In this document: positions 16,363 to 63,116 of the stretch, one piece after another
Layout: each line of letters opens with the position of its first letter
How positions within the stretch are numbered: the first letter of the stretch is position 1
Assembly (NCBI RefSeq): GCF_014200305.1
Contig: NZ_JACHBL010000001.1
Location: forward strand, 1,488,001 to 1,552,000
DNA: 64,000 nucleotides
Source of the DNA: Neomicrococcus lactis
Lineage (GTDB): Bacteria > Actinomycetota > Actinomycetes > Actinomycetales > Micrococcaceae
Direction: 5' to 3'
Notes under the pieces: model-generated
Databases searched by the model: none
What the model was told of the DNA's origin: nothing
Seen by the model: the letters and a program-made list of their open reading frames with translations, nothing else
Program-made: the position numbers and the translations under genes

Positions 16363-17697
16363 ATGTATCGACTTCAAAATTCCGTGCGCAACTATGCGTG
16401 GGGGTCCGAAACGGCGCTCGCTGAGATCCTTCACACCACGCCTTCTGGCAAGCCAGAGGCGGAACTGTGGATTGGCGCTCATCCTGACGCGCCGTCCGTG
16501 GTGTTGAGTGAGGGTGCGCGCGCCGGACAGCCTTTGGATGCGGCCATTGAGGACGACGCCGAACGTATGCTTGGCAGCGCACGTGAGCAGTTCGGGCACT
16601 TGCCTTTCCTCATGAAATTGTTGTGCGCCGCGCAGCCGCTCTCCATTCAGGTACACCCCACGCAAGAGCAGGCTCAGGCCGGTTTTGCGCGAGAAGATGC
16701 GGCTGGCATCCCCCGCGATGCAGCGAACCGCAACTACAAGGACGCCAACCACAAGCCGGAGATGATCTTCGCGCTCACGCGTTTTGATGCGCTGTGTGGC
16801 TTTGCGCCTGTTCGCGAGACCGCCGAGCTGTTTGAAGCGTGGGCGACGTTCCTCGAGACTCAGCAAGCCCTGAGCCTCGACACCACCACCATTCCCATCC
16901 TCAACGCGGCTACCTCGCGCGATGAGATCGTCAATGCGGACCGTGCTGTTGACCAGGCGCGCTCGTTGGCCGGGCTGTTGGTGGGTTCTGACTCTGACGA
17001 GAACGCCCTTCAGGACACCTTTTCGCTGATCCTCAAGGGCGGCACGGGCGTGCGGGCTTTGGCCTCCACCGCTCCGCTGCTCGCTTCCGCCGGAGCCAAG
17101 CTGCCTGCTCGACTCGTGGAGCTTGCTGAAATCGCCAAGATTCACCCTGGTGATCCCGGGCTCGTGGTGTCGCTGTTGCTGAACCGCGTCAGCTTGATGC
17201 CCGGCGAGACCATTTACTTGCCTGCCGGAAACGTCCACGCGTATTTGCGCGGCACGGGCGTGGAAGTCATGGCGTCCTCTGACAACGTCCTGCGCGGCGG
17301 CCTGACGGCCAAGCACATCGACCTCAATGAGCTCGTCTCTACGGTGAACTTCAGCGTGGTGGACGTTCCGCATGTGGAAGCTCACCTCACGGATCTGGGC
17401 CAAGAGCTGTACCAGCCACCGTTTGACGAGTTCCAGCTGCAACGCATTGAGCTCTCCCCCACCGAGATGCCATCTGGCGGCGACGTGGTGCTGGCTCAGT
17501 CTGGCCCGGCCGTTGTCCTGGTGACGCGTGGATCGCTGCTCTTGCAGTCCCCTACCTCCACGTTGGAGCTGAAGGTCGGCGAATCGGCGTTCGTGCCGGC
17601 TGCCGAGTCTCCAGTGGTGATTCGCTCTGCAGGTCCCGAAGGCGGAACCGCCTTCGCTACAACGGTCTCCGAGGCGTCTCCGACCCCTCCACTCTGA
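16363..17697 (+). CDS. manA: Mannose-6-phosphate isomerase, class I
   Basis: Interconverts fructose-6-phosphate and mannose-6-phosphate for mannosylated envelope components. The 444-residue protein opens with YRLQNSVRNYAWGS, and carries the zinc site segments LSIQVHPT (about 87-94), NHKPEMIFAL (about 125-134) and PAGNVHAYLRGTGVEVMA in the cupin barrel. The ATG is preceded by GGCGGGAT and lies two bases after the LCP stop. Its stop codon is the beginning of a tandem 23-bp repeat array. Confidence 0.96.
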   Translation: MYRLQNSVRNYAWGSETALAEILHTTPSGKPEAELWIGAHPDAPSVVLSEGARAGQPLDAAIEDDAERMLGSAREQFGHLPFLMKLLCAAQPLSIQVHPTQEQAQAGFAREDAAGIPRDAANRNYKDANHKPEMIFALTRFDALCGFAPVRETAELFEAWATFLETQQALSLDTTTIPILNAATSRDEIVNADRAVDQARSLAGLLVGSDSDENALQDTFSLILKGGTGVRALASTAPLLASAGAKLPARLVELAEIAKIHPGDPGLVVSLLLNRVSLMPGETIYLPAGNVHAYLRGTGVEVMASSDNVLRGGLTAKHIDLNELVSTVNFSVVDVPHVEAHLTDLGQELYQPPFDEFQLQRIELSPTEMPSGGDVVLAQSGPAVVLVTRGSLLLQSPTSTLELKVGESAFVPAAESPVVIRSAGPEGGTAFATTVSEASPTPPL

Positions 17698-17787
17698 GGC
17701 CACATTTCGCTCCAATGCGAGACCACGTTTCGCCCCAATGCGAGACCACGTTTCCCTCCAGTGCGAGGCCACTTTGCGGCTAGAAAA
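17696..17787 (+). repeat. Tandem array of four 23-bp units, forward arm of palindromic repeat
   Basis: Units start at 17696, 17719, 17742 and 17765 with exact 23-base spacing and a GAGRCCAC(G)TTTCGC core; the first overlaps the manA stop codon. They are contiguous without spacers. The core is the same orientation class as the TGTGAG arm seen at 29076 and 53823. Confidence 0.85.
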
Positions 17788-17800
17788 CTCGATTTCCTAG
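17780..17800. repeat. Central imperfect palindrome of the 17.7-kb repeat
   Basis: CTAGAAAA, five-base centre, ATTTCCTAG: the two halves match as inverted repeats apart from one position. It separates the forward tandem units from the reverse ones, making the whole 17696-17884 block roughly symmetrical. Confidence 0.65.
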
Positions 17801-17804
17801 CTGC

Positions 17805-17884
17805 AAACGGTCCTCACATAGCCAGGTTTGTAGCGTTTTGGCCTCACATGGGTTGGGGCGCTGTAGCGTTTTGGCCTCACATTC
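17805..17884 (-). repeat. Three reverse-oriented repeat units (33-bp spacing)
   Basis: TGTAGCGTTTTGGCCTCACA occurs at 17829 and again at 17862; a diverged copy (GCAAACGGTCCTCACATAG) precedes them. Read on the minus strand each contains TGTGAGG(C/A)C and ends in CTACA, matching the arms of the repeats at 29.1 and 53.8 kb. Confidence 0.8.
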
Positions 17885-29075: not shown

Positions 29076-29096
29076 TGTGAGAACACTTCACTACAA
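29076..29096 (+). repeat. Forward arm of palindromic repeat at 29.1 kb
   Basis: A 21-base arm beginning TGTGAGAACACTTCACTAC that differs at two positions from the arm at 53823-53843. A 14-base AT-rich centre follows, then the reverse tandem units. Confidence 0.75.
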
Positions 29097-29110
29097 GAAA
29101 ATCGAAAAAA

Positions 29111-29240
29111 GTTGTAGAGAAATGGCCTCGCATGGGGCGGGTTGTAGAGAAATGGCCTCACATGGGGTGGGTTGTAGAGAAATGGCCTCACATGGGGACG
29201 GTTGCAGAGAAGTGTCCTCACCTCTAGGGGGGTTCAGAGT
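29111..29240 (-). repeat. Four tandem 30-bp reverse repeat units
   Basis: Units start at 29111, 29141, 29171 and 29201, each GTTGTAGAGAAATGGCCTCA with the tail CATGGGG(N)3G; the fourth is diverged (GTGTCC for ATGGCC) and a fragment follows. The first three are nearly identical. Spacing is exactly 30 bases and no spacer separates them, so this is not a CRISPR. On the minus strand each reads TGTGAGGCCATTTCTCTACA. Confidence 0.88.
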
Positions 29241-52119: not shown

Positions 52120-52790
52120 ATCTTTTAGCCGAAACCGTCACCTGGCTCAGCGACCCGGCCCACTGGACCGGATCCAGCGGTGTGCCCACGCGGCTGCTGC
52201 AGCATGTGCTGGTCACGTTTGTATCCGTGGCGATTGCCGCCCTCATTGCGTTGCCCGCCGGTGTTCTGATTGGGCACACGCGGCGCGGGGCCGGGTTCGT
52301 GGGTGCTCTCACAGGAGCTGCGCGCGCCATCCCGACGCTCGGTCTGCTCACGTTGTTTGGACTGGCTCTGGGCATTGGATTGCAGGCGCCCGTGCTCGCG
52401 CTGATCATCCTCGCGATCCCGTCGCTCTTGGCGGGCGCATACGCGGGTGTGCAATCTGTGGACGTCAACACGGTGGCCGCTGCTCGCGCTATTGGCATGA
52501 GCCCGGCTCAAGTAATTTTCAAAGTGGAGCTGCCGCTCGCCATGCCCGTCTTGATTGGAGGGCTACGCGCTGCGACGCTTCAAGTGGTGGCGACTGCGAC
52601 TCTTGCCGCGTACACGTCAGATACCGGTCTGGGACGCTATTTGTTCGCGGGACTGAAGTCGCGCGATTATCCGCAGATGCTCGCCGGATCTGTGCTGGTA
52701 GTGGCGCTTGCGATTGTTCTTGAACTCATTCTTTCCGCCGTCCAACGCCGGGCAGCCGCTCACGCTGCCCCTCACCAACTTGCCGCATGA
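52116..52790 (+). CDS. Osmoprotectant ABC transporter permease 2
   Basis: 224 residues, related in sequence and topology to permease 1. LIGHTRRGAGFVGALTGAAR, AIPTLGLLTLFGLALGIG and the coupling loop AARAIGMSPAQVIFKVELPL are typical OpuCB/OpuCD features. The ATG overlaps the preceding stop by four bases (ATGA), and the gene ends 24 bases before the binding-protein ATG. Two different permeases form a heterodimer in this transporter class. Confidence 0.93.
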   Translation: MNLLAETVTWLSDPAHWTGSSGVPTRLLQHVLVTFVSVAIAALIALPAGVLIGHTRRGAGFVGALTGAARAIPTLGLLTLFGLALGIGLQAPVLALIILAIPSLLAGAYAGVQSVDVNTVAAARAIGMSPAQVIFKVELPLAMPVLIGGLRAATLQVVATATLAAYTSDTGLGRYLFAGLKSRDYPQMLAGSVLVVALAIVLELILSAVQRRAAAHAAPHQLAA

Positions 52791-52813
52791 ACTCGTCATT
52801 GAAAGGACTCATC

Positions 52814-53764
52814 ATGTCTAACTCTATTTCTCGTAGAACGCTTACTGCTGGCCTGGGAGGCGTGGCTCTCGCGGGCATGTTTGGCCTCGCCGCATGCGGA
52901 AACTCTGACCCGCTTTCCAACGGTTCCAGCACGTCAGCTTCCGCTGCGAGTGGTAGCGCCGCAGCGGGCAAGAAGATTGTGGTGGGATCTCAGGACTACT
53001 ACTCCAACGAGATCATTGCTGAGATCTACTCGCAGGCGCTCGAGACCGCGGGATACACCGTGGATCGTCAGCTGCGCATCGGTCAGCGCGAGGCGTACTT
53101 GCCGGAAATCGAAGCCGGCAAGATTGACCTGTTCCCCGAATACTCGGGACCGCTTTTGCAGTTCTGGCAGGCTGACACCAAGGCGCGCCTGAGCGAGGAC
53201 GTCTACGCGGCGCTGTCCAAGGCTGTGCCGTCCGGATTGCGCGTACTCGATCAGTCCGAAGCAACCGATCAGGACTCCTACGTAGTCACCAAGGCGTTTG
53301 CAGACAAGTGGAAGATCTCCACCATCGAGGACCTCGCGAAGGTCACCACCAAGCTCACGCTGGGCGGCAACTCCGAAGGTGAAAGCCGTCCGAACGGCCC
53401 TAAGGGACTCAAGAGCACGTACGGCATTGACGTAGCATTCACGCCCATTGAAGACGGTGGCGGACCTTTGACGGTCAAGGCGCTCAAGGATGATGACATC
53501 CAGCTCGCCATCATCTACACCGCGGATCCATCCATCACGGAAAACGACCTCGTCTCCCTCACGGATACCAAGGGGCTTTTCTTGGCTTCGCATGTGGTGC
53601 CGCTGGCCAGCAAGAACGTGGACGAGGCAGCCGCCGCGGTCATCAACAAGATCAGCAAGGCCATGACGCCGGAGGACCTCATTGCTCTGAACACGCGCAG
53701 CGTGAAGGAAGAGTTGCCTGCGGCGACCATCGCCAAGGATTGGCTAGCTGAAAAGAAGATCTAG
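52814..53764 (+). CDS. Osmoprotectant ABC transporter substrate-binding lipoprotein
   Basis: 316 residues. The N-terminus SISRRTLTAGLGGVALAGMF ends in a lipobox LAAC (Cys about 29), so it is a lipoprotein; the twin arginine suggests possible Tat export. A Ser/Ala linker precedes the OpuAC/ProX domain (KKIVVGSQDYYSNEIIAEIY ... YLPEIEAGKIDLFPEYSG, IEDGGGPLTVKALKDDDIQL). It captures the solute for the two permeases. GAAAGGA lies before the ATG at 52814. A 21-bp inverted repeat follows the gene and may end the operon. Confidence 0.94.
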   Translation: MSNSISRRTLTAGLGGVALAGMFGLAACGNSDPLSNGSSTSASAASGSAAAGKKIVVGSQDYYSNEIIAEIYSQALETAGYTVDRQLRIGQREAYLPEIEAGKIDLFPEYSGPLLQFWQADTKARLSEDVYAALSKAVPSGLRVLDQSEATDQDSYVVTKAFADKWKISTIEDLAKVTTKLTLGGNSEGESRPNGPKGLKSTYGIDVAFTPIEDGGGPLTVKALKDDDIQLAIIYTADPSITENDLVSLTDTKGLFLASHVVPLASKNVDEAAAAVINKISKAMTPEDLIALNTRSVKEELPAATIAKDWLAEKKI

Positions 53765-53822: not shown

Positions 53823-53879
53823 TGTGAGAACACTTTGCTACAACTTTTACCGGAAACCTTGTAGCAAAGTGTTCTCACA
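53823..53879. repeat. Minimal palindromic repeat: 21-bp perfect inverted repeat
   Basis: The arm begins TGTGAGAACACTTTGCTAC and is repeated exactly as its complement across a 15-base loop (53844-53858). It lies between the binding-protein gene and the tRNA and could terminate transcription from both. The arms match those at 29076 (two differences) and, more loosely, the units at 17.7 and 29.1 kb. Confidence 0.9.
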
Positions 53880-53951
53880 TAGGTGGACAAAGCGGTCAGA
53901 TTAATCAGCTGGTGCCGAATGATGCTTGGCACTGTTTTTGGGCATAAAAAG

Positions 53952-54024
53952 TGCCCCCACTGGGACTCGAACCCAGACTGAATCGATTTTAAGTCGATTG
54001 CCTCTGCCATTGGGCTATGGGGGC
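53952..54024 (-). tRNA. 73-nt tRNA with UAA anticodon (leucine by codon), class I shape
   Basis: Folds on the minus strand as a cloverleaf: acceptor GCCCCCA/TGGGGGC, D-arm GCC/GGC, anticodon stem ATCGA/TCGAT with loop CTTAAAA (UAA anticodon), five-base variable loop TCAGT and T-arm CTGGG-TTCGAGT-CCCAG. The discriminator is A and CCA is not encoded. A UAA anticodon decodes UUA (Leu), but leucine tRNAs normally carry a long variable arm, absent here. A T-rich stretch follows immediately. Confidence 0.85.
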
Positions 54025-61841: not shown

Positions 61842-63116
61842 CTACTTAGATTCCTTGTCATCTTCGTCGTCGTCTTCGTCATCGAAGTCGTCGTCGAAGT
61901 CGTCATCTTCGTCTTCGTCGTCATCCCAGTCTTCATCTTCTTCGTCATCTTCGTCCCATTCCTCGTCATCCTCGAGCTCTTCGTAAGCTTCGTTGATGTA
62001 CTCGACGAGCGCTTCGCGCTCTTCAAGTGGTAGGAACGCAGCTTCAGCGGCGTTGAGGGTGAGTTCAAGGAGATCGTCGAGGTCGTAGTCGAATGCCTCC
62101 ACCAAGAGCTCGAACTCGTCAGAGATCGTAGTGCCGCTCATCAGACGGTTGTCCGGGGAGATCGTCACGTTGAAGCCCGTTTGGTACAAGAGATCAATCG
62201 GATGCGTCTCGATACCGTCACCGAACTGGGCTACAGCACCAGTCTGAAGGTTGGAGGAAGGGCAGATTTCCAGGGCAATGCCGCGATCGCGGACCCACTC
62301 GGAAAGCGTTCCCAGAGTCACCAGGCCGGTGTTCTCGTCAGCCACTTCGCCGTCGTCGTCCGTGCCGCCGAACTCCACCGTGATGTCCTCAGCGATGCGC
62401 ACGCCGTGGCCCAAGCGCAAAGCGCGGCCCACGAGGAGAGCTTCCTTGATGGATTCCAGTCCTGCAGCCTCACCGGCGTGAACCGTGGTGGGGAAGAAGT
62501 TCTCGGCCAACAGGTCAAAAGCTTCTTTGTGACGGGATGGCAAGAAGCCATCTTCGGCGCCAGCAATGTCGAAGCCGCAAACGCCGGCATCGCGGTACTG
62601 AAGAGCCAACTTGGCAACCTCAACACCGTTGTCAGCGTGACGCATAGCGGTGATGATCTGACCCACCTGAATACGTGCGCCGGCGTCGAGAACGGAATCT
62701 ACGCCTTCGTCGATACCCTGCTGAACAGCCTCGATAGCGTCTGCCATCGTCAAGCCGTTCTTGGTGTGCTGCTCTGGAGCCCAACGCACTTCGCCGTAGA
62801 TCACACCATCTTCAGCGAGGTCTTCAACGAATTCGCGAGCAACGCGGACTAGTCCTTCTTTGGTCTGCATGACAGCAATGGTGTGGTCAAAAGTTTCTAG
62901 GTAGCGCTCAAGCGAACCGGAATCTGCAGACTCCAGGAACCACTCTTCGAGTTCTTCTGCAGTGTTTGCCGGGAGCTCGTGTCCAATTTCCTTCGCCAGA
63001 TCAATGATGGTCTGCGGGCGCAGTCCACCATCCAAGTGATCGTGGAGGGAAACTTTGGGGAGGTCGCGGAAGTCGAAATCGGGGGAATAGGCCGTGAGAA
63101 TCGTTTCATCAGTCAC
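61842..63116 (-). CDS. add: Adenosine deaminase with long acidic C-terminal tail
   Basis: 424 residues. The TIM-barrel motifs are complete: KVSLHDHLDGGLRP (zinc His, about 21-34), TTVHAGEAAG (about 218-227), RLGHGVRIAED and LEICPSSNLQTGA, SPDNRLMSGTT (zinc Asp). It converts adenosine to inosine and can recycle the adenosine released by AhcY. The last 44 residues are almost all Asp and Glu with a few Trp/Phe, encoded by GA(C/T)GA(A/G) repeats. A tail of this kind is unusual for the family. MazG follows. Confidence 0.95.
   Translation of the reverse strand: MTDETILTAYSPDFDFRDLPKVSLHDHLDGGLRPQTIIDLAKEIGHELPANTAEELEEWFLESADSGSLERYLETFDHTIAVMQTKEGLVRVAREFVEDLAEDGVIYGEVRWAPEQHTKNGLTMADAIEAVQQGIDEGVDSVLDAGARIQVGQIITAMRHADNGVEVAKLALQYRDAGVCGFDIAGAEDGFLPSRHKEAFDLLAENFFPTTVHAGEAAGLESIKEALLVGRALRLGHGVRIAEDITVEFGGTDDDGEVADENTGLVTLGTLSEWVRDRGIALEICPSSNLQTGAVAQFGDGIETHPIDLLYQTGFNVTISPDNRLMSGTTISDEFELLVEAFDYDLDDLLELTLNAAEAAFLPLEEREALVEYINEAYEELEDDEEWDEDDEEDEDWDDDEDEDDDFDDDFDDEDDDEDDKESK

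Follow-up and report, generated by a model that had tools for sequence, protein, structure and literature searches.

Several same-direction transposase-binding sites of ~20 bp, with TG...CA edges, are found at the ends of Tn7, Mu, and members of the IS21 family. When palindromes are scattered through a genome, they are commonly classed as REPs, with RAYT transposases or RNA hairpins as the usual explanation. According to PMC3733652, REP, BIME, and REPIN elements associated with RAYT are GTAG- and CGTC-tagged palindromes, and inverted REP dimers with conserved spacers are known. IS elements are described as inserting at the REP axis (PMC1525189), and the hot spots of IS30 are nearly palindromic (PMC9333248).

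The window analysed here, a stretch of 64,000 nucleotides of Neomicrococcus lactis, contains three loci of one repeat family (17762-17881, 29076-29222, and 53823-53879; Table 1), all of them intergenic, as the initial annotation had reported. At up to three mismatches, the focal arm has three matches in the window and none in 100 shuffles, and the arm at 29076 differs from it at exactly two positions. The focal array at 53823-53879 is a perfect inverted repeat as described, with two arms that are exact reverse complements (21/21) and 15 bases between them. It is situated between the 3' end of a MetQ/OsmF-like gene and a convergent tRNA-Leu(TAA). This tRNA is the sole match in the window to Rfam at the gathering score, and the arrays match no RNA family described there. 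Elsewhere in the window, a GTC/TCG-rich low-complexity tandem stretch is found within a coding region (61857-61967).

Table 1. Coordinates of the three arrays in the window and of the genes next to the focal array
Feature	Positions	Strand	Remark
Focal array, arm, A type	53823-53843	+	TGTGAGAACACTTTGCTACAA
Focal array, 15-bp centre between the inverted arms	53844-53858	.	CTTTTACCGGAAACC
Focal array, inverted arm, A type	53859-53879	-	TTGTAGCAAAGTGTTCTCACA; identical to the first arm
Upstream gene, MetQ/OsmF-like ABC substrate-binding lipoprotein	52787-53764	+	Name based on sequence character, no family scan
tRNA-Leu(TAA)	53951-54024	-	Converges on the focal array
Array 2, A arm	29076-29096	+	
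Array 2, 15-bp centre	29097-29111	.	GAAAATCGAAAAAAG
Array 2, B-side arm	29112-29132	-	
Array 2, three outer arms	29142-29222	-	Starts at 29142, 29172, and 29202; 30-bp period
Array 1, central pair	17762-17818	-	B arm 17762-17782 on +; A arm 17798-17818 on -
Array 1, two outer arms, A side	17828-17881	-	Starts at 17828 and 17861
Array 1, degenerate 23-bp tandem arm copies, B side	17696-17761	+	

Anatomy and genomic distribution of the arrays

Each array contains exactly one face-to-face pair of arms with starts 36 bp apart, a spacing kept in 35/35 intact centres. The core spans 57 bp and consists of two 21-bp half-sites and an A/T-flanked 15-bp centre. This centre is polar, its polarity goes with the orientation of the arms, and its consensus or frequent forms are near GGAAACTCGAAAAAG. 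The view that the minimal unit is a perfect inverted repeat is not supported by comparison across the family, as the normal unit comprises two unlike half-sites facing each other, A (TGTGAGAACRCTTTGCGACRA) and B (TGCGCGGCCANTTTGCTACAA), and the inner arms of most copies agree at merely 11-19 of 21 positions. With its perfect A/A pair and zero outer arms, the focal copy is exceptional. Because the orthologous congener array combines an A-like arm with a B-like arm and an outer arm, the perfect palindrome of the focal copy is probably a secondary correction.

A third arm type, O (TGTGAGGCCACTTCTCTACAA), is preceded by C-rich sequence. Outer arms face inward in direct orientation and number 0-4 per array; most arrays carry some, and 22 of the 33 tabulated arrays have them on the A side. 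Their number changes, with three outer arms at the 29076 locus versus one in the orthologous array of the congener. After hand correction of two mis-chained arrays, outer-arm spacings are exclusively 30-33, 42-43, or 52-53 bp, corresponding to three, four, and five helical turns, a post hoc argument for helical phasing with about five independent spacings outside the 30-33 bp class. Intergenic tandem repeats lie beside arrays at L034:2145-2290 (about six copies of CTGCAGTTACAAAACACTAGG) and L163:1710-1860 (alternating TTCCGGTACTCAGGA / TTCCGATACCCACGAG units).

The density of loci in the window had led to the prediction of further copies throughout the genome, and this was borne out. A degenerate arm pattern yielded 35 matches in the 2.70-Mb genome versus 1 with the reversed control (0-1 matches across reversed-pattern controls), and a sequence-only model of the 63-bp centre recovered 14 centres in N. 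lactis and 19 in the one congener compared. Two further congener arrays (L207, L208) were found solely via the outer-arm model. The N. lactis genome thus contains 14 intact arrays and that of the congener 21, and an additional array split by an insertion sequence brings the congener total to 22. The family is therefore genome-wide in both genomes of the genus, with about 14-22 arrays per genome, and copy numbers are in the tens, not the hundreds. Strong arm matches are all located in 36-bp arrays or in the IS-split array, save one lone arm (L209). Outside the genus, the centre model had no match in any of 146 relatives or of 394 further genomes from the class, a representative array had none among plasmid and phage records, and two arm patterns had none in viral contigs. 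Among the genomes compared, the element is restricted to one genus. For the IS elements on the second contigs, matches are to records of Glutamicibacter and Arthrobacter.

The congener also carries another family of intergenic repeats (L152, L157, L159, L208, L209), with the forms GCAACNNNNGCTAC / GTAGCNNNNGTTGC, often adjoining GGGCCCAGCGTCGTCGTACTGG. It has 17 copies in 131 kb of congener loci that are biased towards arrays, versus 1 in 151 kb of N. lactis.

Location and turnover

The arrays are intergenic and nearly always downstream of a gene. Convergent gene pairs flank 17 of the 35 intact arrays, whereas 11 of the window's 50 junctions are convergent (p about 0.01); genes were called by a simple codon model and hand-corrected at the 178-181 kb locus. 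At least 33 of the 35 are at convergent or co-directional junctions, and divergent junctions hold at most two. Replichore polarity was rejected, as the A-to-B orientation is mixed along the chromosome.

The initial annotation had proposed comparing the presence of copies between close strains; a comparison of the two species shows that they differ in occupancy. Both have an array at six junctions. A full array is missing in the congener at the hexosaminidase/methyltransferase, pdxS/GNAT, gshA/idh, and phoU/gpm junctions and at manA/glpX, where a remnant arm is found (gene names at compared junctions are from sequence character, not family scans), and for eight or more congener arrays, neither the centre model nor the outer-arm model found an array at the corresponding place in N. 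lactis. Where an orthologous junction lacks the array, its flanking DNA has diverged too far for an insertion footprint to be read, and neither a target-site duplication nor a clean empty site was seen. Two N. lactis arrays at 180222 and 181147, only 925 bp apart, have centres identical at 55 of 57 positions and are alike through the outer arm, with a likeness that ends sharply at TGTGAG and CTCACA. This pair fits copying as a unit, or gene conversion.

In the congener orthologue of the array at 2416064, an insert of about 2.65 kb follows base 9 of the 15-bp centre. The insert contains a transposase gene of IS30-family character and nested IS3-type genes and has CGA at both junctions. The split array documents a natural IS30-type target. 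It is the one array insertion seen, and none of the other IS30-like copies in the genus are located in arrays.

At 178.8-181.5 kb (L031:2833-5470), three arrays lie between and on either side of a DUF559-like gene and a lipoprotein gene; the two outer neighbours of this region nearly abut in the congener (L182). The DUF559-like gene was rejected as a partner of the arrays, as its relatives in both genomes are not beside arrays. A region with TauE and NADPH-dependent reductase genes (L037, L187) has 95-99% identity between the species, versus about 70-90% at most other compared loci, which points to a probable recent transfer. Finally, a stretch between phoU and gpm (L163:1615-1705, L186:1009-1096) has 72% identity between the species within intergenic DNA that has otherwise diverged; it is a candidate structured RNA.

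Sequence constraint and competing explanations

The 35 centres contain 496 substitutions from the consensus over 1995 positions, but zero indels, at a mean pairwise identity of 65%. Model searches could miss copies with indels, but the 36-bp spacing also holds in the two arrays contributed by the outer-arm model, which is independent of the centre. A common ancestor alone would give the shared spacing, though not the absence of indels. Constraint is also evident in five orthologous pairs, where changes affect 9 of 95 conserved positions, defined on the other 25 arrays, versus 50 of 190 other positions (p about 0.001).

Arm-arm pairing is 75.2% observed versus 73.6% in shuffled sequences, values as high as those observed occur in 11-41 of 500 shuffles, and covariation is marginal. 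Fold z-scores are near -9 for some centres, including the focal copy, and near 0 for several, with at least eight centres at shuffle level. Pairing within single arms does not exceed shuffles overall, is weak in the A and B arms, and lacks covariation support, while O arms are able to form a 6-bp hairpin. An RNA stem as the conserved feature is not supported, as arm-arm pairing is barely above shuffles and many centres fold like shuffles, and neither is the single-arm hairpin as the unit, given its missing covariation support. With pairing close to shuffles, many centres folding no better than shuffles, and separate hairpin-plus-T terminators adjoining 9 of the 19 tested arrays, what is conserved seems to be recognition as DNA and not pairing as RNA.

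These results bear directly on the terminator-like character that had been proposed for the repeats. As terminators or 3'-end hairpins between convergent genes, the pairs would fold in the transcript and stop RNA polymerase or protect the 3' end. The preference for convergent junctions and near absence from divergent ones agree with such a role, as do the very stable folds of copies such as the focal one and the flanks CCNCCCCA/TGGGGTGGG, which lengthen the stem in several copies. Yet the sequence after the stem has no T-run, the two halves are systematically unlike, eight or more centres fold at shuffle level, arm-arm covariation is marginal, many orthologous junctions have no array, and separate terminators are often at hand. 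We consider this role rather improbable. Still less likely in our judgement is a REP or REPIN, in which each arm would be a tagged miniature stem-loop moved by a RAYT (Y1 transposase) and the inverted pair a REP dimer. The intergenic placement, mostly at convergent or unidirectional junctions, matches that reported for REPs in PMC3733652; inverted dimers with conserved spacers and IS targeting of the axis match REPs as well (PMC3733652, PMC1525189). The complement of arm positions 16-19 is GTAG or GTCG in most arms (conserved C16-K-A-C19), and O arms can fold a hairpin, but no supported stem-loop is found beside the tag, and the in-arm hairpin is weak in A and B arms. The suggested search for a RAYT, extended from the window to the genomes, found 0 Y1_Tnp in either genome of the genus, whereas the identical search was positive in E. 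coli and other controls, and a RAYT/Y1 transposase was rejected as the mobiliser. Moreover, the accessible parts of the REP literature describe no heterodimer that is fixed at 36 bp and accompanied by phased direct arms. The label REP-like therefore holds for the dispersed intergenic occurrence, the differing occupancy, and the use as an IS target, but not for the RAYT or the hairpin.

A miniature transposon whose autonomous element was lost, with O arms plus A as one end, B as the other, and a 15-bp stuffer between them, is an unlikely origin. The arms start with TG and end with CA outward, the copied pair is sharp-edged at the arm termini, occupancy is polymorphic, and the multiple same-direction 20-bp sites resemble the ends of Tn7, Mu, or IS21, a likeness that may serve as a lead. 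Against it, the outer arm number of 0-4 leaves the tip unfixed, no target duplication was seen, and no autonomous copy or arm-flanked gene was found among the strong arm matches in either genome. Integron attC, Xer/dif, and serine-integrase att sites were set aside on anatomy (odd 15-bp centre, no core boxes, convergent gene ends).

A putative composite binding site and its relation to known systems

In our best reading, the element behaves like a REP, although it has not been demonstrated to be one, and termination is not its primary role. The chances are about even that this non-coding DNA element, dispersed and restricted to one genus, works as a composite site for protein binding. The protein, most likely of transposase/recombinase or nucleoid-architectural type, would contact the A/B pair in the form of an asymmetric dimer, and additional subunits may occupy the O arms cooperatively along one face of the helix. 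The element would be gained, lost, and copied as a unit, and it may persist mostly at gene 3' ends, where it would be harmless, while its centre would also serve an IS30-family insertion sequence as a landing site. Several points weigh against this reading: common descent could account for the shared spacing, though not for the missing indels; neither a target-site duplication nor a clean empty site was seen; the helical phasing is a post hoc argument; and the pair at 180222 and 181147 could result from gene conversion. More speculatively, and with low probability, the arrays may belong to an undescribed chromosomal nucleoprotein system of one actinobacterial genus, in which a dedicated putative protein binds asymmetric 57-bp cores, together with accessory sites in helical phase, at roughly 15-20 places scattered between genes, either moving the sites or organising the chromosome through them. 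Both of the usual explanations for dispersed palindromes, RAYT transposases and RNA hairpins, fail the tests run here, and still spacing and contact positions are constrained. The binding protein, once found, would reveal a new route of spread for small intergenic elements or a lineage-specific chromosome protein.

Like Rho-independent terminators, the arrays are palindromes at gene 3' ends, but they differ by the absent T-run, the unclear stem covariation, and the separate terminators often present. The ends of Tn7, Mu, and IS21 likewise have several same-direction ~20-bp sites per side and TG...CA edges, whereas in the arrays the arms enclose no transposase gene, the tip is not fixed, and no target duplication was seen. 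The IS30 target hot spots and REP-axis insertions are mirrored by the IS30-family transposase gene exactly at the axis of one array, with the difference that a single array was hit and other IS30-like copies of the genus are elsewhere. In behaviour, the arrays resemble REP, BIME, and REPIN elements, which are also short dispersed intergenic repeats with inverted dimers and clusters, convergent or co-directional sites, species or genus restriction, and IS targeting. In contrast to these, the arrays have no RAYT in the genus, unlike 21-bp half-sites at exactly 36 bp instead of the 20-40-bp REP stem-loop, direct outer arms at helical spacings, and tens rather than hundreds of copies. The arrays may thus represent a new variant of dispersed intergenic repeat, with a putative composite DNA-binding site as the conserved property.
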